Shown piece after piece: positions 48,172-64,000 of a DNA stretch of 64,000 bases. The stretch's first letter is position 1; every line of letters starts with the position of its first letter. A program made the position numbers and the translations under genes. The notes below the pieces were generated by a model, which did not search any database, was not told the DNA's origin, and saw only the letters and a program-made list of their open reading frames with translations. Source of the stretch: Pelodera strongyloides (Eukaryota; Nematoda; Chromadorea; Rhabditida; Rhabditidae); assembly GCA_036852015.1 (NCBI GenBank), contig JAANDG010000123.1, positions 124,001-188,000 of the forward strand. The letters are read 5' to 3'.

Positions 48172-48882
48172 GTTGCAAACGTCATCCACCGGTAAAATCA
48201 CTGAAAAACGAGCGATATTATATAAGAAACGGAAATCGGTGTACTTAAACAAGAGAGGAAGCGCGGCGGAAGAAATGGGTGTAACATTCTTTATCAACTC
48301 AGATAAAAACCCGGTCTCGCTTTATTTTGGGAACCTTCGTCATATTTGTTGTTGATTTCGTCTGTTTACGTTTTTCTTTCTTTTGCCTTTGCTGTAGTTA
48401 TTGTTTTTGTTATATTTTGAGCTGTGCATCAGTTTTACATAAAGTATTCACATCACAACGTATAAAGAAACTAAGCATAATAAAATTTATGGCAACTTAT
48501 TTTATTTTCAAACTTTTCAAAAATTGCGAAAATTCGGGCGTGACAAGATTCTGTAGTGTAATACAGAATACCACAGTGCAAATGTATGCCGTCTACGGTA
48601 GTATTGTGACCTTTTAGCTTTTGGTGCACCGAAAGCTGCAACACTTTTTTAGCTTACTAGGTAGCGAAAACACAAATAAACAAAAACTTAGAATAAAAAG
48701 AAAAACAATTTCAAACCTTTTCAAAAAGAAAAACAATTTCAAACAATTTCGCTATGGGATTTCGTTTTTTTTGCCCAATTTTTTGGGTTTCGTGAAGCAA
48801 ACCATGCTAACAGGGACTTCCTATGATGATGTTGCAAAAAAAGAACATATTTCAACCGTGTGACGCGGGGAGGTATGACTCG
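48172..48882. other. Upstream region of RBBP6 up to the KDZ element
   Basis: About 0.7 kb, AT-rich, no exon recognised. It must contain the RBBP6 promoter or 5'UTR, because the transposon boundary lies immediately beyond it. Confidence 0.45.
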
Positions 48883-49040
48883 TACAGTACATGCATGGCA
48901 AATAAATTCATAATGTCTGGAAGCGGAATCACTACTACGCGTGATCTTCAGGCAAAATGGCGGGAAAAGGCGTGTATTTGAAAATAATTATGTAGTTTGT
49001 AGTTTCTCCAAAATAAATTCCCCCAGTCGGTCGTCGCGCG
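48883..49040 (+). repeat. Left terminal inverted repeat of the KDZ element
   Basis: Starts TACAGTACATGCATGGCAAA. Best conserved against the right end over 48,883-48,975. Contains CTTCAGGCAAAATGGCGGG in common with the right end. Confidence 0.8.
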
Positions 49041-49365
49041 CGCTTCCTTTCTACTCACGTTCTTCTTTCGTCGCTGTTTTCTTTATTAGTTAAAATGTTG
49101 TTTTCTTCTTCTCCATATTAATGTTAGGTTTTAGGTTATCTCTGTTTCTGATCAGATAGGTCGTCCCTTTTGACTTTGGCCGGCTAGCCCTTTGTAACCA
49201 TGTGTGTTTTTCGAGCTGTTTTCGAACTGTCCCCTGTAATAAATGTTCTTCACATGCTATCATTTTATTAAATTTTCCAGAGTTAAGAACTCCCTGTGCC
49301 CGTATATACCAATTATCAATTGTTTATATATATCCATTTTCGGCTCCTGGTTAAGAACATTGAAC

Positions 49366-52300
49366 ATGCCTCTGCCCCGTAGACTTCCGCAAGGTCAGTT
49401 TTTCTTGTTTTGCTCTATTTGCACGTCTGTGGCCCTACAGATAAATTAGGGTTGTCGAGTATATGTGAACGACACTGCGAGGGATTTGCCTTTCGCAGAT
49501 ATTCTGGAATTACGAACACATTCAGTATCTCATGGATGTGAGGAGAATGCAAGGCTTACGTAAACCAACGTACGACGGGAATTTTTAACGTTAGCGCATG
49601 AACAATAGCTAGCCTGTAACTCTCTTTCAGTTTTGTTCTTTTCTACACAAACTTTCATCTTGCCTTCTTTTGTGTTATACTTTACTATGGCGCTTATTTA
49701 TTTTAGATTCGGAATTCTCCCGAAGTCAGGAACATTACCATCTTCATCGTATTCTGGAAAGTGTGACGACTTACAACAAATGTAATGCCAAGCGTCGCCG
49801 TCTGATGGTAATCCATGTGGACGAGCGAGAGGATTATCGTATTATGGGAGCCTATGGTACCCCATCAATGGTTGGATGTGCCCTGACGTCTGGATTATTT
49901 TCTACTTTAGATGGACATTCGGATTCGTTTGCAGAAGAAAAGGTACGCAAATTGATTCAAAATGGCGGAGCAAAGCGAAGTTTTTATTAGTGATCTCTCT
50001 ATACGACGTATCGTACGATATCGATGTTGTACAAATATACTGAAGCCTCCATTGTTTTTAGGTCGCGAATTATCTCCCGTATTTGTGTGCCCCAGATGTC
50101 TGCGAGGTGGAAGAGGCGCCTGCCGACGTACTCCAGGCGTCGATTATGGAACTTTTGTTCCACGTTTCCTGGCCGAACTGCGAAGTCTTCTCTTATCACG
50201 CCCCATTGGGGTGGCCCAGTACGATGCCTTTCCGTCCTTTGTATCAAGGTGAGTCCTGTAAATTAAGTTGAATATTCCTTGGACTTGGACTAGAAACCTT
50301 AAAACCTTTTATATGGAAAAGGCCTGTTCCTTTCTAGTTACTATTTATTATCTAAATGTGTGCACTTGCGTACCTTGTTTGTTGTCCAGGGGAGTTGTTT
50401 TACACTTACGTTTTACACATCTGCATTTTTCAGATAATCACGACAGGAACGCATTGCTGGAAATATATTTTTCTCTGTATGCCGCCTACTACTGGAGAAT
50501 AAATGACCTCTCAATATGCACTCACACCACTGACTGTGCAGGTCGACAGTTTTGTATTGTTTTGCTTTTTATTTATTTTTTGCATTTGATGTATTTATTA
50601 TGTAGCTAAGTGGGCCGTATTGACATATTGATCTCATAAAGGCGCGTTCGGGATTGATTTTCCGATCCCGAACGCGCCCTAACGCATTTGACACTTTACT
50701 GCTACCGTTATATTACGATTGGTTTAGGCGAGATCCATCATTTTGGGGCGTGTTCTTCTTTTTCACCTGTCATCCAGAAACTCATGGGAAGTCCACGAGT
50801 TGTTGCTGACAAAGATATAAGTAAGTGGACATCTTGTTCCGTCTGCGCGAGCACTTCGATGTACCAGTGACGGAGATATGCTGTAAATGGAAATGAATGT
50901 TTATATATATTTATGAAGTCATTTTCTTTTATTTAGAATTCGATGCTCATCGCATGTACGTTGGATGTCGTGGTGTGGGATTCGAACACGAAAAGGTTGT
51001 AAGTGTTATTTAAGCTAATATTGGTATGTATGTGTTTATATAGTTCTTTCACGGCCTACCTCAGTTTCATCGAGTTATTGCAGGTACGAGCTTTAATACT
51101 GGTATGATAGAGCTATGAATTTGCTAATTCTGCCACGTGTTTCATAATTCTGCGTCTCTCTGTTACTTACGGGGCGTTCTTTTTATAGAAAGTTATGTGC
51201 GGCGTTTTTCCATAGGTTTATTTCAGAAGCAGAAGGAGGGGTCATCTACGGAAAATAAAGTGGCGTTGAAAAGGAAGAGGAAGTCTCCGGCGGAAGTCGA
51301 GGTTAGTGCAGCCTGCAGCCTATTTCTAATTGTTTGTATGCTCTGTTTTTCCGCTGTTGGGAAGAATGCTTTTAGTCGTGTGTGTGGCCTTGTCGTTTCG
51401 GCAAACTTATACTTGTCAGTACTGTGTCTTCTCTTAAAAATAAAATAAAAATTGTTTTACGCTTCAAGAGCGTGCTCCTTTATTCTCCTTTTCTCTTCTA
51501 AAGATTATTTAGGATTCGCCTGATCTGAAACTGTTCAAACAGATACAGTCTCTGAAACGAAAGTTGGTTATATTTTTGTCTTGTTTTAGGCTTAAACTGC
51601 CTTAGGCTTAATCTGTATGTGTATGCAAATGTATTACTCGCTTCTTGTCCATAGGGCCCTGGTGGTCATTGGTTCCTTTATAACTTCTTTTTAGGAACGC
51701 ATATTCCACATTTGTTGCGGAAAACTACGGAAGAATAGAGGGGACGTTTACAGAGCGTAATAGAAGGCTCGCAGAGATGTGGAAGACAGCCGATCATAAG
51801 CTATACGCGGTTAAAGTGCAACAAAGGCGCCTGGAAGAGTACCAGGTAGAATATAGACTCAGTATACCTCCATTTTATGTTTATTATTTGCTCGTAGGCT
51901 CGTAGGTATGATATACGACACATACACATCAGCAAATAAAATGGGTGTTATTGCAGAAAATGGTGCAAGAGCGTCGTGCTGGCCTTGCTGCTGAGTCACA
52001 GTCAGAAAAAGCAGCGGAACGCGGTACACGTATCGCCATGATTAAAGGAGGAGGCTCATTGGATGTAAGTGTTCGGTTCCCAGTTATTGAAATAACCTGG
52101 TAAATAATGACCACCGAGACTGCCTAACAAATCAAAATAATACATTTTGAAGGAAATCATACAAATTACGGAGGTGTAGTTTCCCTAGTTTTCTTTCTTA
52201 AAGCACTTTTACTTCATTTGGTTATATTTAATATTATTACTGCAATATTATTGTTCTTATCGCATAGTAAAATTTTCAGGCGTCAGTTGCCCAATCCGCA

Positions 52301-53019
52301 GCAAAAGGTGCGCCGCCCTCGCTCCAGAGGATGGTACCTGCATCCGCTCCTTTTCGTGAAGTGAGTTTTACTTCTTTTCCTTATTATTAGGTACTATTCT
52401 TCTTACCGTTTGTTTGCGAATGTTAGTCTATCGAAGGGATTATTGTTATCAGTAATATTATTAGTAAATTTTCAGGCGTCAGTTGCCAATCCGCAGCAAA
52501 AGGTGCGCCGCCCTCGCTCCAGAGGATGGTACCTGCATCCGCTCCTTTTCGTGAAGTGAGTTTTACTTCTTTTCCTTATTATTAGGTACTATTCTTCTTA
52601 CCGTTTGTTTGCGAATGTTAGTCTATCGAAGGGATTATTGTTATCAGTAATATTATTAGTAAATTTTCAGGCGTCAGTTGCCCAATCCGCAGCAAAAGGT
52701 GCGCCGCCCTCGCTCCAGAGGATGGTACCTGCATCCGCTCCTTTTCGTGAAGTGAGTTTTACTTCTTTTCCTTATTATTAGGTACTATTCTTCTTACCGT
52801 TTGTTTGCGAATGTTAGTCTATCGAAGGGATTATTGTTATCAGTAATATTATTAGTAAATTTTCAGGCGTCAGTTGCCCAATCCGCAGCAAAAGGTGCGC
52901 CACCGGTCCTTAAAATGGTTTCGGCAGAGGACATTCGTTCATTTTCTGATGAAGATGATGGACAGGGGGAAACACTTGGAAGTTTCGATGAAGTTCCACA
53001 GGCGATCATTGTTGATTAG
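49366..53019 (+). CDS. HMG-box protein carried by the KDZ element (about 490 aa)
   Basis: Exons: 49366-49393, 49707-49942, 50062-50248, 50434-50541 (frame-neutral, optional), 50728-50820, 50937-50998, 51044-51083, 51189-51301, 51513-51562, 51695-51845, 51957-52064, three repeated short exons (52280-52360, 52476-52555, 52671-52751) and 52867-53019 (stop). A basic stretch KRKRKSPAEVE precedes an HMG box (NAYSTFVAENYGRIEG ... RLAEMWKTADHKLY), usually a DNA-bending domain. The roughly 250 residues before it (e.g. CEVFSYHAPLGWP, MYVGCRGVGFEHEK, FFHGLPQFHRV) are not recognised. The C-terminus is acidic. Position and orientation suggest a transposition accessory protein; vertebrate HMGXB3 is remembered as pairing an HMG box with a KDZ-like region. 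The second repeat exon has a 1-nt deletion. The start is the first ATG with a good donor; an upstream exon is possible. Confidence 0.7.
50640..50683. repeat. 44-bp foldback in an intron of the HMG-box gene
   Basis: GGCGCGTTCGGGAT and ATCCCGAACGCGCC flank a 9-10-nt loop. The termini resemble those of the MITE at 37,287-37,565. Confidence 0.75.
52280..52866 (+). repeat. Tandem 196-bp exon-intron repeat (three units)
   Basis: Three head-to-tail units of 196, 195 and 196 bp, each with an 81-nt exon (ASVAQSAAKGAPP, then SLQRMVPASAPFRE), donor GTGAGT and acceptor TTTTCAG. Introns are identical or nearly so. The start of a fourth, divergent unit is the terminal exon. The middle unit lacks one C in its GCCCAAT. 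Confidence 0.95.
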
Positions 53020-54133
53020 ATAAATGCGTTTGATATTGTTATTATTAGTATACTTGATATTATGATTATTATTCTCATCTCTCATCTTTATTGTGCACCC
53101 TGTCAATTCCAGTGTTCGCGTGCCTTATTTACCGTTATAGGATATATGTGTCTGTTTTCGCTGTACTTCACTTGTTGCTTTCCCAGAACGTCTTTATCCG
53201 ACATTGTGCTACCTTGGTGTAAGAGGGTGAAATTAGAAGTACACACATATTTGATATTTATTTTAAAAACCCGCTTTCGGTCTTAAAAGAGTCGAATACA
53301 ACACGATTGCTTTACATTCTGGTTCTCCTGCCTAGTATATTAATATTATAAGTTGTGCGATGCACCTTTCAGAAATTGTTTAATGATATTTGCTTTTTAA
53401 CAAGTAGAATGGATTCATGACATGTCGCTGATGCTTTCACTAAAAGGTCTCTCTACATTTTGTCCTTCATTTCGCGCTCCAATTCCCGATGTTTTTATTA
53501 GTCTGTATATGAATTATGAATGTTTGTTTTAATGGGATGTTGGAATTATGAATGTTTGGTTTATTAGGATGTTGTGAAGTATTTTCTTAGGGAATCCTTG
53601 ATTATTTGTCGCGTATCCGTATGCAATAAAATATATTCAATAAAAAATTGTTGGTCTGTTTCCTTGGTCTTATTGTGTGGATGTCTTGTCTTTTTTTTAG
53701 TGATAAAGTGATCGCAAGCTAAAAAAAACTAGCATTTTTTGATCTTTTTTTGTTGACGAAGAAGCTTGTGAATACGGTTTATTGGGTAGAACAAGTTGAT
53801 AGGGAAAAGTACGCAGTTCGTACGAAGAAAACTCAAGTAGAAAGTTTATACTTATTTGCAGCTGGGTCCCGAGCACAGTAGCCATACAATACTTTGCGAA
53901 ACTTTAACCGTCAAAAACCAAGTTCTGCGCACCGTTAGTTGGACAAATAAGTGAGAATTAACTGTTTCTCCAAAGCGCGCATTGGACTAGAAATATGTTT
54001 ACTTATGTACTATGGAAGCAAAACTATACTGCAAGCGCTATGGAGTTTTTAGCCGTACTATCCAATAAGCCCGTGAAAACACAAACGTTGTGATAAAAAG
54101 AAAAATTTGTTATGTAAAAAATTGTAGTTACAA
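53020..54133. other. Spacer between the two genes of the KDZ element
   Basis: AT-rich; should hold the 3'UTR of the HMG-box gene (AATAAA at about 53,627) and the transposase promoter. No repeat or exon was recognised. Confidence 0.45.
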
Positions 54134-57100
54134 ATGGGAAGATACAGAAAGGCGAAGGGACTCGTCGGTCGCAGACCTCCTCAGGTGGAAGAAGCATCAA
54201 GGTACCGTATGATACTTAATTCTCTTCTTGAAAATATGTTGGACGAACCAAACGCATTGCTACTCATATTTGCTATTATGAGTTTATCATAAAGAAATAA
54301 CAACCACAACCATAGAATAAGGTCTGATTTTTACATTGAAAATTAAAAGCATAACTGAAAGACGTAGGGAGAAACTCCGGAATTAAACAATTATGAAACA
54401 AAACGTATAAGGGTGGCTCAAGCGACATTATACAATCAACACATGGAAATAATTGCTTATTTTGAAGCGGTATAATGGAATGTAAGTATAGGAATAACTG
54501 CAGTCCTATGTACTTGCGCTAGATGGTCTCGAAACTCAAAAAACGGAGCCCTTCCTAAACACGATCCGGGAATATGTCATATCCTTTAAAAACATGTCAG
54601 CATTACTAATTACTAAACAACGCACATCAAATAGCAAAACCGAAACTGTTTCTTAATGAGCAATACCGGCCTGTTTTTGAAACGCATCGAGTACACCAGC
54701 ATTCTCACGCAGCTTATGCTCATGAAAATGAGCATAAATGAGAATAAAAAGGCGAGCTGAATTCGAGCAAATTGGCATACATACATAAGAATTCAGTGGT
54801 CCACGATGCGTTTCTAAAACCGACCGGTATTTCGCCTAAAGATTCATATGCCGTAGCTAATATGCAGTAGATTAAGATCCACATTCCACATAAGTCTTTT
54901 TTTTGCAGGAAGAGTTACCTATTTCCAAAGTAAAAGGCAAAGGACTTATATCATTCTGAGAATAAATTGCGTACAAATTAGGTTTCGTGACATACTCAAA
55001 AAATATAAACATAAAAAATAAGAACCGAAACGTAGGAGAAATAAGAACTCAGTAGACTAAAAAATGTAATAAGAACTCTGTAGAAAACAAAGCAATATGC
55101 ATCCTACTTTAGGAACATGCAACAGACACCTACGCCGCGAGTCATCCCTGATGATCGGTCGATGGACCTGGATCTGGAACGTGAGCCGTCGTTGGAGCAG
55201 TATTCGTTACCGCTTGTTTTCGACGGGCTAACCACGTTTGAAGCTGCTCATCTGGAAAATTGTGATCATGGCTTCAAGTACATGGAATATCGCAGAAAGG
55301 TGACTAAATCATAGTATGAGGTCGCATATAATGTCACATTTGGTTCTAAAGGTCGTGTGTTCCCGATAATGTACGTGATTCCAGTTTCTAGTTTGATGAG
55401 ACACGCAATTCCACCGCTAACGTGACTTACTATAGGGGCCACAAAGTGTAAAAAAAATTGTTACAGGTTAAAAAAGCCATGAAGCCGTTGGAGGAATTAT
55501 TTTTAACGACAACTATAGTCCTAGGCTAGATGTTTATATAATAACTTTTATACGTTATAACTAGCACTGTGCATAGGTTTACCTTTGGATAGGATACTTA
55601 AAGCCGTACTGTACCTACTTATGACATCCGTCCGGCAAGAGTCGGGCACGCACACACACTGCATAGGATACATAGGAAATGCTTGTCATATGCAAATTCC
55701 CAAAGTAGGTACAATACGGGTTTAAAGTGAAATACCTACCGGATTTTGAAACGCATCGTGGACAACTGAATTCTTACGTATTTATGCAAAGTTGCTCGAA
55801 TTTATTTCGATTTTTTTATTCTAATTTTGTTCATTTGCATAAGCAGCATATGATTTCTGGTGTACTCGATGCGTATCAAAAACCGGCCGGTATTCCGCTT
55901 TAATGCAGAACAAGACAAGACACCAACCTGGTTGTTCTCGGTTTCTAAAACTGAAATTACATCAAAACTGCCTACCCCCACAAGCGATCATCCGATTATC
56001 TTTAGTATTACATAAACATTTAGGTAACTCTCGTTAACTACCAAGGAAAGGAAGAAACACGAGAACTGATCTTCCAGTCGGCACCTGAATGTACTTGTGT
56101 CAACGAACCTGTCATCCACAATGATGTCCAACGAGCCGGACAGGACTACTTTGTCCATGCATCACTCCTTGTTCGACTTATGGCTTCCGGATTGACCTGC
56201 CAGACACCTCTCAGCGCGTTCCACAAAAGTCTGAAACTGGAGTGTGCAATGATGGGAGATGAAAATGGAGTGGTTGACATCAAGAGATTAACGGTTGGTA
56301 CCGAGCACACATAGCGTAATACAACGCGCGCTTTTGGCTGAATACCCCCTTTGACAGAAATAAATGTTGGTGAAAATGGCCTCAGGAAACGTCTGTAGTA
56401 GAAGGAAGACAAAAGCGAATAGGTTGTATGCTTCAAGGTTACGTACTTTTCAAATGCAGAATGGTGCTCGTATAAGAGAGCATTCTACGTAAAAATGCGC
56501 AACTTAGCAAGAGACTCGAAACCAGGTAAACGTAGAAATAACATATATAATAGGCATATATGATTAAAAAGTAAACTTGGAATTTTAGGCTGCCTACGAC
56601 CTGTTCCGTGACAAAATCGCTACAAAAGAGGCTTGGTTCTGTTGTGAGCAATGCGGTGAATTTCCGGACACGCTTGTCGTTGACGGAATTCAGTTGGGAA
56701 CGAGGCGTGCTATAAGCAACGGAATAACAAAAGAGGTACAGCGTACAGCTAATACATACTTACCTTCATTTGAAGGGCGTAGAAAACCGGCACAATCCCT
56801 AGTTCGGAGCGTCGGGGCATCGGCGGCGTGGGTGAACTCTCTCACGTCATACTGTAATTATTTATTAAAGCGAATGAACCACAGGATATGATATTTCCTA
56901 AAAAATAATCCCCGGGGATGCATGCAAAACGTGAAATGAGCCCTCATCTCTGTATTCATTAGTCATCCAAAGTGTAAAGTGTTGCTCAACAGACAACGCC
57001 AGGAGATTTCTGCTTCTTATCCTTTACTTTATCACACAAATACTCTTTTCAGAATGCGCCAGAGGTCCGAGCAGTTATGCCACACAAAAAAAGGATTTTC

Positions 57101-58876
57101 GTTGCGGAGAAGGGGATCAGGACCAAAGTGAATAAATATGCAAGACGAGAGATCAACGTTACGCAGCTGGCTCCACACATTCCGAAAGAATACGATCATC
57201 TCCGACACTTTTTGGAAGCTTGTGCAGATTCCCACGGACTTTGCGTTCCCGCATGTAAGGACATTATCCTGGACCTTTCATCTGCGTCAAGTGCGCTTGT
57301 GGTCTTCCCTGCACGAAATAACGGCCACGAACTGTTGAAGAACGTTGCCAGTGGTTGGAACCCCTATGATTCTCCGCACAACATGGAAACATTTATGTCC
57401 AATTTCCCAGTTCTTCATCCGGCACTACAATATCTCTACGGAATCCACGGGAATATCCCTGAGGTAGCACGGAAACTATTGGATGCCGTATGTGGAAAGT
57501 TGGAAACGTTGGAGAAGGTTAACAATGGAGACTACGAAGATCTGCCACCTACCGAGAGCTCACTGGACGTGTTCCCATCAATGCCGAAAAAACGAGATCT
57601 TCCCGTGTACAAGAATGACGAGATCATGTTGGAGTGTGATCCAAAGCTGGAAAGTAAGAATACTCATAAAATTACAAATATATGAGATATTTAAGACGAA
57701 CCAGTATAGGGTATAGTATAGTTACGAGTTTAGATGCATTTCTGATAGCAAAGTAAAATAGCATTATGGCATAACACTGATAGATGAGCATTAGCTAGTA
57801 TTTGACATAGTTCGCTGTTAAACACTACGGCAGCGGTCATATACCGAGACTATAACTAGCGTGCAATCCGTGCAACCAGCAACCACTTTCTTAGAAATAA
57901 TATGTTATATGTTCAAAACCACACACCTTTTTCATCAGAAACAATAATCACCCAGTCGGCCTCCCAAATCCAATCTTCTCGATGAAATCGCGAAACGAGT
58001 TAAGGAAGGCTGGTCTGAACCTAAAAACTTGAAAATGGTGTTTCATAAAATTTTCTTCAGAGGGACGGAAGAGACTTTCAAGCGGACTTATGTTGTTCCT
58101 ATGCCAACATGGAAAGACCTACGGGGCTCAAGTTATGGACGGTGGAGAAAGTCCGAAGCATGTCTTCGAAATGCTGATGACACGGTACCCCAAAGATAGA
58201 ATGCCTCAAAGGGTCAGTTAGTTTAAAGTTAAGACTTACTTTACTTCCTCTTTTCGCATCCTCACCGGTATTTGCTTCTGGAGAAGAAGAATAGGTAGTG
58301 GAAAAGCCTTGGCTTCGGAAAAACTGAAATAAATAAAACCGAATCGCTGATGAAAGGAAAACATCAAAATACACGCACCAATACTAAGACGCAGTATACA
58401 TTACACAGTAAGATATGTGATGTGATGTGGCGGATGAGAATAAAGAGTGAAATACATAATGACATGAGCTATGAACATCGAAATAGGCAGGTTAATGATC
58501 TACCTAAGCTAGGATTGCTAAATTAGGATTATAGGAATGAAACAATAGTGTACATTAAAACATTATTTAGGTGATCTACGACAATGCCTGCAGGCTCGCA
58601 GAATATTGTCTCTCCAGAGAGTACCACCTCTTCGCCAACACTGCGTTCTTCGTTGACCGATTCCATGCGGTAAATCACAAAGGATGTGCAAGAGCCGTAC
58701 GAATGAACCACTACAAATGGAGCAGCGATCTTGCCATGCTCAACAGTCAGTGCTGCGAGCAGACAAATGCACAGCTTAAGTACCTCCGCCGCTTCGTCTC
58801 GTATATGTCGCAAACGACTTATATCCAAACAATTAGGCTTTATCTAGCCCACACTAACTGTAGGTTGGGTCTTTAA
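54134..58876 (+). CDS. KDZ-type transposase (576 aa, seven exons, intact frame)
   Basis: Exons 54134-54201, 55113-55299, 56024-56293, 56589-56735, 57053-57653, 58061-58212 and 58571-58876 join without frameshift. The catalytic core pattern fits the Kyakuja-Dileera-Zisupton RNase-H fold: first Asp in LVVDGIQLG (D207), second in VIYDNACRLAEYCLSRE (D479), then VDRFHAVNHKGC and NSQCCEQTNAQL with a candidate Glu (E538). Cysteine pairs before the core (PECTC; FCCEQCGEF) may bind zinc, as in the CxC modules of the superfamily. The enzyme would cut and join the element's ends in the nucleus. The frame is intact despite MITEs in introns 1 and 2, so it may still be active or be kept by the host. Shorter than many KDZ transposases, so a missing N-terminal exon cannot be excluded. 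Confidence 0.82.
54657..54840. mobile_element. MITE family 1 copy nested in transposase intron 1
   Basis: Family ends AATACCGGCCTGTTTTTGAA and ACCGACCGGTATTTCGCC; slightly diverged termini. Shows that the host element predates this insertion. Confidence 0.8.
55722..55902. mobile_element. MITE family 1 copy nested in transposase intron 2
   Basis: Ends TTTAAAGTGAAATACCTACC and CCGGCCGGTATTCCGCTTTA with the full family core. Confidence 0.85.
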
Positions 58877-59399
58877 AATCAACTGCGGAGGGTAGTTATT
58901 GTCATTAACAGTTAGCGTTTTTTTTATTTGATACTGGCATAAAAATTTGACAAAGGAGGAATAAAATTTGTAAACATTTTAAATGTTTGTTAAAGCCATT
59001 GCTTGTTATAGGTTACTACTTAATAATTTTGCGTTGCTACATAGATCAATGCAATATAAAACTGTTTTATGACCCATCCCGTTCTCGTTATGTATGTGGT
59101 TTGTCGCCCTCATATAATTATGTTGCAATGATTAAATAAAGTTCTTATAGCACTGGAGCACAATGTAAAAAAAGAATGTTAATAACAAATAAAAGGAGCA
59201 TAGAAACCTCTAACCATATAAACAGCAAAAGGTATTGCATATTAGCGCTTTATACGGTTTACAACGCAGAAGCATCGTAAAAAATGCGCACCGTGAACAG
59301 ACAGCACAATACATAAGAAAAAGACCTCGCTAAGAAACTAAACTAAAGATAAAGAAAGAAGCACAAAATGCAACAACAATTCAAAAATCGTAAACAAGA
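58877..59399. other. 3' non-coding part of the KDZ element
   Basis: AT-rich, with AATAAA-type signals near 58,960 and 59,134, plausible poly(A) signals for the transposase. No exon seen. Confidence 0.4.
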
Positions 59400-59577
59400 T
59401 CGGACGACCAACCGCGGCGGGCGCACGTGACCCTCCGCTCAAAAACAACTGTTCAGACTACAGACTACATGAAAATTTTTGAACGGTGCGAATTTCCCGC
59501 CATTTTGCCTGAAGACCACGAGCAGTGGCGGTACCGCTTACGGACATTATGAATTATTTTGCCATGCAAGTACTGTA
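59400..59577 (-). repeat. Right terminal inverted repeat of the KDZ element
   Basis: Reads TACAGTACTTGCATGGCAAA from 59,577 on the minus strand; carries TTCATAATGTC and CTTCAGGCAAAATGGCGGG in common with the left end. Confidence 0.8.
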
Positions 59578-59737
59578 GGCGTTCTAGTTGATTTTTTTGT
59601 GTTATGATGGTAGGTTGTGTGTGTGTTTGTGTTGTGCTACATGCAATGTGTGTCTCGTAGGCGCGGCGGCGTATATTGCGCGTTTGAGATGGGCAGAAAT
59701 TTCAGTGTCTGTGCCTCTCACTTTGTCACTATCTGTG

Positions 59738-61528: not shown

Positions 61529-64000
61529 ATGAAGGAAACGGGATTGTTAGTTTTGTCTTCTCGCTCGATAAACATAGCCAAGGAACTTCTTAATTCAGCG
61601 ACAAAAACGGTGTCAAGAAAATTGTAAGTTTGCAATTTGTGATTTTCTAGTTTTTGTTTGTATACTAATCTAGCAGTCCCCATTTTGGAGTTTGGAGCTT
61701 ACAAACGTCTGCTCTGCTTACACGCTTGCAGTACGATGTATTGTTATCGGATAATTCGTAATACCGGTCGGTTTTTGAAACACATCGTGGACAACTGAAT
61801 TCTTATGTATTTACGCTAATTTACTCGAATTTAGCTCGTTTTTTTTATTAATTTATGGTCATTTGCATAAGCTGCGTAAGAATGCTGGTGTACTCGAAAT
61901 GTTTCAAAAGCGGGCCGGTGTTTTGCTTTGTTGAACATTTCCAGTTGTGTTGCAGGTATGTTCGCCTGGAACACCCTGGCTTTGAAGCTCTGATACCTCA
62001 ATTGTACCTCTATTCGGCCAGTGTTTGTCCGAACCTTGATGTGAGGATCCTACTTGGGAGTAACATCCCCGCTCATGAAGTTCTTATTGGTACGTGTGTT
62101 TATTTATTTATTTCATCGTTTACCGTAATCGTTGTGGTACTGTGGTACGCTTTCGAATTACTCTAACTCACGAAGCGCTAACATAGTTTGGGTTTTACAG
62201 TAAACTTAAGTGTTGAACGCGATGTGCCAGTAGTTAATACGTATCCTTGATGTGGTTAGATGTTTATAGTAGGAAGATAGAAAAATTTAATTTCTCCAGG
62301 TTCCGAGCAACCAGGAAACGAATTGTTTGTTCCGAAGCCGACGTACAAAGAAATCGTCATGGGAGGCACATTCGATCGTCTACACAATGGTCATAAGGTA
62401 ATATGTTTTCTGCTAGACAGTGGTTAGTCTATTAGTCACGGCGTATTTTTTTTTCTTTGCTCCCGGGTATGAGCTTGAACACTCTTAGTTAGGTGAAAGA
62501 TCCAATGGCTTAATTGTAAGTCGAGATATCTGGAAAGGTGGTGTACTATTCAGCGTGAAAATTTTAAAATGATCTTTGAAAAAAAAATATAATACGAAAA
62601 TTATCTTACACTGTCCTGCATGTTTGCTATTTAGGTTCTCCTATCGAAGGCGATCATTATGGCCGAGGACAAATTACACTGTGGTGTTACGGATATAAAA
62701 ATGATTCAAAGTTAGTGTTTGTTTATTCTCGGCATTCGTGGCACGGATTTACTTTGCGTATCGGTATCTCTGTTAGCGTAATGTGCTTTATGGTGTTTGC
62801 AAGTATGCTGAAAATTTACCGTATTTTGGGACTAAACAAGAATATTTTTTAATTTTCCATATTATACGTATGCAGATTTAGTGTAAAAATAGGGTAGTAT
62901 TGACAGAATCACACCGATTTTTTTGCCATACTTGCAAATCACATTATCTCCCCCCCCTTCCCTACAGCCTGTTTTATCACCCCTTTTTGTACATAAATTT
63001 CGGTCTTATCTTGGATCGTGTAACTTCGCTTTAACTTTCAGAGAAAAACCTCTGGGAGTTAATCAGTCCGGTCGAAGAGCGCCAAAGGGATGTTGAGGAA
63101 TTTGTTGCTGATGTATCTGATGGATTGCTGTAAGTTTTATTATAATTGGGCATTTGGCGCATTCTGTTTATTCTCTGCTTTCCATGTAAAACACTGGCCG
63201 CATATCCGAACTGACGAGGATTATTTAGCATTTGATTATTGTTTAATTGTTTCTAGGAATAAAGGTATAAAACAAAACAATTAAACAGTACTTTTGTTTG
63301 TATTTGTGTGTCAACGTAAGAACACTTCAAAGATCCGGTAAGATTCTCAAGTCGTGGAATGTTACACTATTCAAGAGTTGTGGCAACCGGTAAAATATGA
63401 AATAACGTATTAAATTGTAAGCTTTTTATTATTATTTTTTTCTGATCTTTCCATTTTTTTGTCTTTTGATTATTTACGTTTCAGCTGCAGCACGTTCCCG
63501 ATCTCCGATCCGTTTGGTCCGTCGATTACTATTCCGACCCTTGATGCGATCGTTGTGAGTGCGGAAACACTGAAGGGAGGCGAGGCAGTGAATAGGGAGA
63601 GGAAGGTAGGTTCACACTTTGGGTATCTTTTAGCGTTTTGATTTCAATGCCAAGTTGGCGTTGAGTTTATCTGTGACGGGAAACATCTATGTTTGAAGCG
63701 GTATAACTGCTGGTTTTTTGAAACATATGTTGGATAATATTGTATTTCTATGTAGTGTTAGTGTATGCAAACGACTGCGCGATACTACACCGTGCACCAT
63801 TTTTTATTTTAATAATATTCATTGGCCTATAGGAATGCATTTGTCCAATTTACATTTCAAAATTCGGCCTTATATCGCTTTAGATAATCTCAAGTTGCAT
63901 TGTTGTTTTCATAAACTGGCTTTTTACAGGCTCGCAGCTTGAACCAGTTGGACGTGATAGTGGTAGATCTGTTGGATGATGAGGACCCAATTTTGAAAGA
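61529..64000 (+). CDS. COASY: Bifunctional coenzyme A synthase, N-terminal part (runs off window)
   Basis: Exons 61529-61623, 61956-62089, 62300-62397, 62635-62710, 63042-63129, 63485-63605 and 63930 to the edge join in frame. A moderately conserved N-terminal region is followed by the phosphopantetheine adenylyltransferase domain with its nucleotide-binding motif [12 protein letters not shown] (residues 98-109) and the later [10 protein letters not shown] with NRERK. The enzyme converts 4'-phosphopantetheine plus ATP to dephospho-CoA and, through its C-terminal kinase domain, to CoA. The kinase domain (with its P-loop) lies beyond the window. MITEs occupy intron 1 and the intron after exon 6. 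Confidence 0.92.
61755..61930. mobile_element. MITE family 1 copy
   Basis: Ends GTAATACCGGTCGG and GCGGGCCGGTGTTTTGCTTT with the family core. In COASY intron 1, about 25 bp from the acceptor. Confidence 0.8.
63691..63883. mobile_element. MITE family 2 copy
   Basis: Ends TTTGAAGCGGTATAACTGC and CGGCCTTATATCGCTTTA with inner TTGAAACATA / TACATTTCAA. In a COASY intron. Confidence 0.75.

Follow-up and report, generated by a model that had tools for sequence, protein, structure and literature searches.

The KDZ class of DNA transposons was reportedly founded by Iyer et al. in 2014 and, to our knowledge, the biochemistry of KDZ transposition has been little studied. In vertebrates, HMGXB3 joins an HMG box and a KDZ-like region in one protein. 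Among nematodes, Zisupton elements have been described in Pristionchus pacificus and Plectus sambesii (PMC9297572). Those of P. pacificus, with cores measuring 8.1 and 8.9 kb, have terminal inverted repeats, and the Pristionchus elements encode single proteins of 1166 and 1367 amino acids (aa), with more than 40 genes and target-site duplications undetected; in the accessible part of that paper, HMG goes unmentioned for them. Zisupton produces 8-bp target-site duplications, and the TET/JBP-carrying KDZ elements of fungi combine a transposase with a second gene (PMC12730594). A cysteine cluster, CxC7, has been described for Zisupton in a paper whose accessible sections report F-box fusions in fish and Caenorhabditis and leave HMG unmentioned (PMC12062965), while HMG-box appears only in the reference list of the accessible text of PMC12477816. 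From the portions available of these sources, KDZ elements with 8-bp duplications and extra genes (PMC12730594, PMC12477816) and KDZ elements in nematodes (PMC9297572) are already known. The host protein HMGB1, which bends DNA for Sleeping Beauty, aids the assembly on their ends both of Sleeping Beauty and of RAG1/2, the latter of which pairs unlike sites (PMC7827188, in part). Here we describe a KDZ element of 10.7 kb in a 64,000-nt stretch of the nematode Pelodera strongyloides (the window; C123:124001-188000 of an assembly of 159.9 Mb in 1171 contigs). The sequence of the nematode spliced leader SL1 is present in this genome as 315 exact matches, compared with 0 for a reversed control, in keeping with a nematode host. 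It carries two genes, one for the likely transposase (gene 2) and one for a second protein (gene 1) that, judging from its sequence, stands an even chance of acting as the element's own HMG-like DNA-bending partner.

Comparison of its ends with those of related copies placed the element at 48870-59590 of the window. The inverted repeat arms, 48878-48967 and 59493-59582, are 90 nt long and 84% complementary, in agreement with the repeats about 10.7 kb apart reported in the initial annotation. The limits given there, 48883..59577, had to be moved outwards. Related copies share 13 bases outside the TACAGTAC block on each side, and in an alignment of eight ends the common sequence extended 13 bp beyond the earlier limits, with each element having one GAGGTATGACTCG and one CAACTANNACGCC end. 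The two terminal repeats of the window copy are:

48870-48967, plus strand: left terminal repeat, outermost 13 bp GAGGTATGACTCG, with the identical 13 bp at ends of C166, C811, C925 and C319
59493-59590, minus strand: right terminal repeat, outermost 13 bp read inward CAACTAGAACGCC, an end type also present in C166, C811, C215 and C319

One CAACTA and one GAGGTA end were found in each of the seven elements with both ends known. The outermost 13 bp of the two ends agree at only 6 positions in the window copy; the terminal inverted repeats of C3 and C909 are short, with 10 and 8 of these 13 positions in agreement.

When the genome was searched with the window left end, C166 and C811 each proved to have a pair of ends, and C215 and C925 one end each. 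The family search identified at least six KDZ loci in the genome, and a protein search gave the identical six; the family search of 14 control genomes returned zero KDZ loci. Both genes, with gene 1 (HMG-like exon included) upstream of gene 2, are present at four of the six loci: C123, C909, C118 and C204. C909 is the sole locus besides the window with both genes and both ends, and it also has a perfect 8-bp duplication; the further copies joining ends and genes that the initial annotation had proposed to look for therefore exist. The right end could be fixed for C118 and the left end for C204. In C3 the N-terminal gene 1 exons are present but the segment in which C204 has its HMG-like exon is missing, and the C36 contig stops before reaching gene 1. 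C118 and C36 are 98.8% identical across 8.6 kb, in a match that ends at the element's right end, and C204 and C3, which lie at differing sites, show identities of 97.2-99.5% when compared piece by piece. These near-identical pairs at different sites indicate recent movement. Both pairs were ruled out as haplotype duplicates by their differing flanks (for C36, the right flank, the only one assembled).

Perfect 8-bp target-site duplications were detected for six of the nine family elements examined, two of the six (C3 and C909) with KDZ genes. The count of nine leaves out C36, whose left side is off the contig, and single ends at C35, C78, C181 and C111. The duplications are:

C3: AAAAAACA, perfect
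C909: AAAAATTT, perfect
C166: CTTATTGC, perfect
C811: CAAACTTC, perfect
C215/C925: CGAAAAAT, perfect; two contig ends, taken most simply as one split element
C319: AATTAGGC, perfect

There was no duplication at C204, where the right end is truncated, or at C118, where the left end is not fixed. Two candidate left ends of C118 were rejected, one at position 1243 of the joined stretch (family-like but without a duplication) and one at position 697 (7/8 duplication but a poor end). As a control, 45 kb of unrelated window sequence contained zero 8/8 pairs and one 7/8 pair, and 7/8 pairs were not counted for this reason. Aligning copies, as the initial annotation had suggested, thus fixed the termini at 48870-59590 and revealed 8-bp duplications in six relatives, but none for the window copy.

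Two features of the window copy count against our reading of the element. It has no target-site duplication, its flanking 8-mers being GACGCGGG and ATTTTTTT, and a wider look around it found only 7/8 pairs, within a simple ATGATG stretch. In addition, its end types are reversed relative to the genes when compared with C3 and C909: the gene 1 side carries the CAACTA end in C3, C909 and C204, and the KDZ side carries a GAGG/GAGT end in C3, C909, C118 and C36. Inversion of the interior via recombination between both repeats would explain the swapped ends, but the missing duplication stays unaccounted for. That absence would fit two ordinary host genes lying side by side, with inverted repeats that are unrelated dispersed repeats, yet the gene pair recurs at four diverged loci, copies 97-99.5% identical occupy different sites, and perfect 8-bp duplications flank the KDZ-bearing C909 and C3, whose ends are of the same type. 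Given linked copies at unrelated sites with duplications, we rejected host neighbours as an explanation and regard it as extremely improbable. The element proposed in the initial annotation stands on both counts, since its ends are not unrelated repeats and other copies do link such ends to the genes.

The genome also contains elements, 7.4-7.8 kb long, that share these ends, are flanked by 8-bp duplications and give no KDZ match, at C811:30322-37799, C319:92037-99459 and C166:125597-133349. The one in C811 has inverted arms of 3.2 kb that are 98% identical, with a 343-bp tandem array between them.

Both genes lie on the same strand and contain introns, as first annotated, and yield spliced open frames of 487 and 576 aa. 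Their models were predicted on the basis of splice signals and conservation, and small exons are uncertain in them. For gene 2 the model is:

54134-58876, plus strand: gene 2, likely KDZ transposase, 7 exons, 576 aa, predicted model with an open frame
54134-54201, 55113-55299, 56024-56293 and 56589-56735, plus strand: gene 2 exons 1-4, predicted
57053-57653, 58061-58212 and 58571-58876, plus strand: gene 2 exons 5-7, predicted

Residues 431-571 of gene 2 match Pfam PF18758 (E 2.7e-8; 34.2 bits versus a cut-off of 26.6), which confirms the KDZ label it had first received. PF18758 was matched in all five members of the gene 2 alignment (A3), including the database protein P0001, the one relative found in a protein collection search with gene 2. 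Spliced homologues are present in C118, C909, C204 and C3, and 290-330 of 522-552 residues are identical between gene 2 and four copies that represent three other lineages. In an alignment of five proteins that includes P0001, D207 and E538 do not vary; D479 is shared by all four nematode rows, and P0001 has N at this position. We propose D207, D479 and E538 as a candidate catalytic triad, and the gene 2 protein is likely the element's transposase. No CxC family was among the Pfam matches of gene 2 or of the A3 members, provided that the library contains CxC models. Classic Zisupton was dropped as a filing, no cysteine-cluster family (CxC7) having been seen, and the element is filed under the KDZ superfamily only. 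A frameshift suspected in gene 2 at about 58060 came from a wrong exon choice and vanishes when splicing follows the other copies. A search of a viral contig collection gave no confirmed relative of gene 1 or gene 2.

A dispersed repeat of about 185 bp (CCGGCC...GAAACGCATCG) lies at window positions 54653-54840, 55722-55903 and 61757-61929. The first two copies are in gene 2 introns 1 and 2, in opposite orientations, and the third is downstream of the element. Similar stretches occur within the sequence fetched for C96, C118, C36, C204, C3, C166, C925 and C811, and the repeat looks like a miniature inverted-repeat transposable element.

The second gene lies upstream of the transposase gene, with the following features:

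49366-53019, plus strand: gene 1, conserved accessory protein, 14 exons, 487 aa, predicted with GT-AG splicing and an open frame
49366-49393, 49707-49942, 50062-50248, 50434-50541 and 50728-50820, plus strand: gene 1 exons 1-5, predicted
50937-50998, 51044-51083, 51216-51301, 51513-51562 and 51695-51845, plus strand: gene 1 exons 6-10, predicted
51957-52064, 52280-52360, 52671-52751 and 52867-53019, plus strand: gene 1 exons 11-14, predicted
49707-50998, plus strand: gene 1 N-terminal region, containing the pattern Cys-x-His ... His-x3-Cys (C179, H181, H191 and C195 identical in 5/5)
51513-51845, plus strand: gene 1 HMG-like region, exons 51513-51562 and 51695-51845, by remote profile similarity
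52265-52901, plus strand: 196-bp tandem repeat of 3.2 copies, triplicating one gene 1 exon

This model is least secure at exon 7 (51044-51083) and in the tail exons. The middle copy of the exon in the 196-bp repeat, which lacks one base and if spliced in would change the reading frame, was excluded. Homologous gene 1 exons were found in C118, C909, C204 and C96, and in part in C3, with 195/348 residues identical to the C96 copy, 158/334 to C118, 142/344 to C909 and 127/327 to C204. The N-terminal Cys/His set perhaps binds zinc; this region had no convincing relative in protein, Pfam or PDB profile searches. Searching the protein collection with one or five gene 1 sequences, which can reach only relatives sharing short exact words, gave nothing at E <= 1, and Pfam gave no dioxygenase match. 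Several weak candidates were set aside: DUF2989 on a partly intronic gene 1 frame (E 0.0044; 17.4 bits, below the cut-off of 23.8), FANCAA, DUF4174 and PRTP, each on a single gene 1 member, and PDB chain 4mkm against the gene 1 profile (E 0.059).

Differences at codon positions 1, 2 and 3 were 0.29-0.52, 0.25-0.40 and 0.60-0.70 for gene 1 (10 pairs) and 0.36-0.40, 0.22-0.28 and 0.60-0.67 for gene 2 (nine pairs, without the near-identical C204/C3). Both genes are therefore constrained at the protein level; no ratio of nonsynonymous to synonymous rates is given between lineages because silent sites are saturated. Gene 1 has been kept in place across lineages with saturated silent sites, which makes a functional component likelier than a passenger. 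The initial annotation had called it a cargo or accessory subunit; with its position kept in the four lineages found, the cargo half of that description becomes less likely and a standing component is favoured. Three observations count against an element-encoded partner. C3 has a perfect duplication even though it is without the HMG-like exon. Trees of the four lineages built from gene 1 and from gene 2 are discordant, with weak support (62 and 81). In C96:114278-117898 (reverse strand, locus L037), gene 1 has a stop-free spliced model and lacks recognisable ends, and the 19 kb taken contain no KDZ match; this is a solo or possibly host-retained copy. The loss of the exon in C3, together with the faster evolution of gene 1 relative to gene 2, would suit a passenger that counters host silencing or alters chromatin, like fungal TET/JBP, and is dispensable for the chemistry of transposition. 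Passenger genes of this kind have been described on KDZ and other elements in the accessible parts of PMC12730594 and PMC12477816. The fungal hAT7 and Plavaka lineages, however, occur both with and without TET/JBP (PMC12730594, in part), whereas the position and orientation of gene 1 are constant in the four lineages found, and we consider a passenger possible but rather unlikely.

The case for an HMG-type function of gene 1 comes from its C-terminal region. When a five-copy profile of this region was compared with PDB, HMG-box chains accounted for 18 of the 23 matches at E <= 10 (best E 0.012), compared with 0/15 in controls made of two column shuffles and one reversal. The whole gene 1 profile matched TFAM at E 0.15, located in the HMG-like region. 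Local profile-profile alignment to six HMG boxes (hhalign) gave P 0.012 in the expected register, with controls at 0.41-0.52, and placed an N-A-Y/F motif on HMG helix 1 and an L-x-E-x-W motif on helix 2. A basic patch (e.g. KRKRKSP) precedes the region in four of the five gene 1 copies. These profile comparisons suggest that the C-terminal domain is probably a very diverged HMG-like domain.

Several results weigh against that assignment. The 18 HMG matches are many constructs of only three proteins, HMGB1, TFAM and Nhp6A, and the best match of the reversed control, a non-HMG chain at E 0.032, comes near the best HMG E-value. Because the E-values of HMG and control matches are close, the evidence lies in the kind of match and not in the E-value. 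The hhalign local probability is just 3.6%, and the global alignment has P 0.86. No Pfam HMG family match passes for the window gene 1; across the five members HMG_box_2 gave a single match (E 0.28), outranked by an unrelated family (E 0.074), and a genome search with PF00505 (HMG_box) found 29 places, zero of them at gene 1 loci. AlphaFold2 modelled the main HMG-like exon alone (56 aa, single sequence) as one long helix with a predicted local distance difference test score of 89.8 (64-85 in the other models), and a Foldseek search of PDB gave no match for this single-exon model. The HMG-box label that the gene first received thus holds as remote profile similarity (the 18/23 PDB matches) and not as a match to a curated HMG family. 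The lack of a passing Pfam match, the single-helix model and the Cys/His residues invariant in 5/5 would also fit a transposition protein with a non-HMG DNA-binding or dimerising helix, whose N-terminal Cys-x-His ... His-x3-Cys region recognises the ends. Such a protein would not account for HMG proteins making up 18/23 weak matches against 0/15 in controls, nor for an alignment register that suits HMG helices 1 and 2, and we find it improbable, though worth keeping in view.

If gene 1 does encode an HMG-like partner, the KDZ transposase, with its candidate residues D207, D479 and E538, would cut and join the element ends, and the gene 1 protein would bend or bridge the unlike CAACTA... and GAGGTA... 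ends so that they pair. Bending or bridging would take place via the HMG-like C-terminal domain and perhaps also the potentially zinc-binding N-terminal region. The same-ended elements without a KDZ match (C166, C811, C319 and C215/C925) may have been moved in trans. The fuller proposal, a two-component KDZ transposon whose own HMG-type subunit pairs unlike ends and which is a plausible source of HMG+KDZ host proteins, is put forward tentatively; on these comparisons, we would not expect all of it to hold.

The family offers defined ends, 8-bp duplications, recently moved copies, same-ended elements without a KDZ match and two conserved genes, and it makes the partner need of a KDZ transposase open to one assay. 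Should gene 1 prove to be an HMG-type factor, the element would supply for itself a helper that Sleeping Beauty and RAG1/2 take from their hosts, as a self-contained equivalent of the partnerships of HMGB1 with RAG and with Sleeping Beauty, and such elements would be a candidate origin of HMG+KDZ host genes. HMGXB3 would have the same two kinds of domain, but in one protein and not in two genes as here. Our literature search found no paper joining HMGXB3 with KDZ or Zisupton and no HMG partner of KDZ elements, the subscription papers, including the founding ones on Zisupton and KDZ, being beyond its reach.

The element resembles Zisupton/KDZ elements of fish, fungi and algae, as far as the sources available describe them, in its PF18758 transposase, multi-exon structure, large size and 8-bp duplications. 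It is unlike them in that no CxC family was matched, a second gene is conserved and the two ends are of unlike types. Compared with the Zisupton elements of Pristionchus and Plectus, in the accessible account of PMC9297572, six KDZ loci were found here, duplications are present and there are two genes, and the transposase has 576 aa instead of the 1166-1367 aa reported for Pristionchus. Unlike the second gene of the fungal TET/JBP KDZ elements, as partly available to us, gene 1 has no dioxygenase match and is present in all four lineages found. A functional parallel may be HMGB1 with Sleeping Beauty and RAG1/2, where an HMG protein aids a recombinase at the ends; HMGB1 is a host protein, whereas the HMG-like protein here is encoded by the element (PMC7827188, in part).

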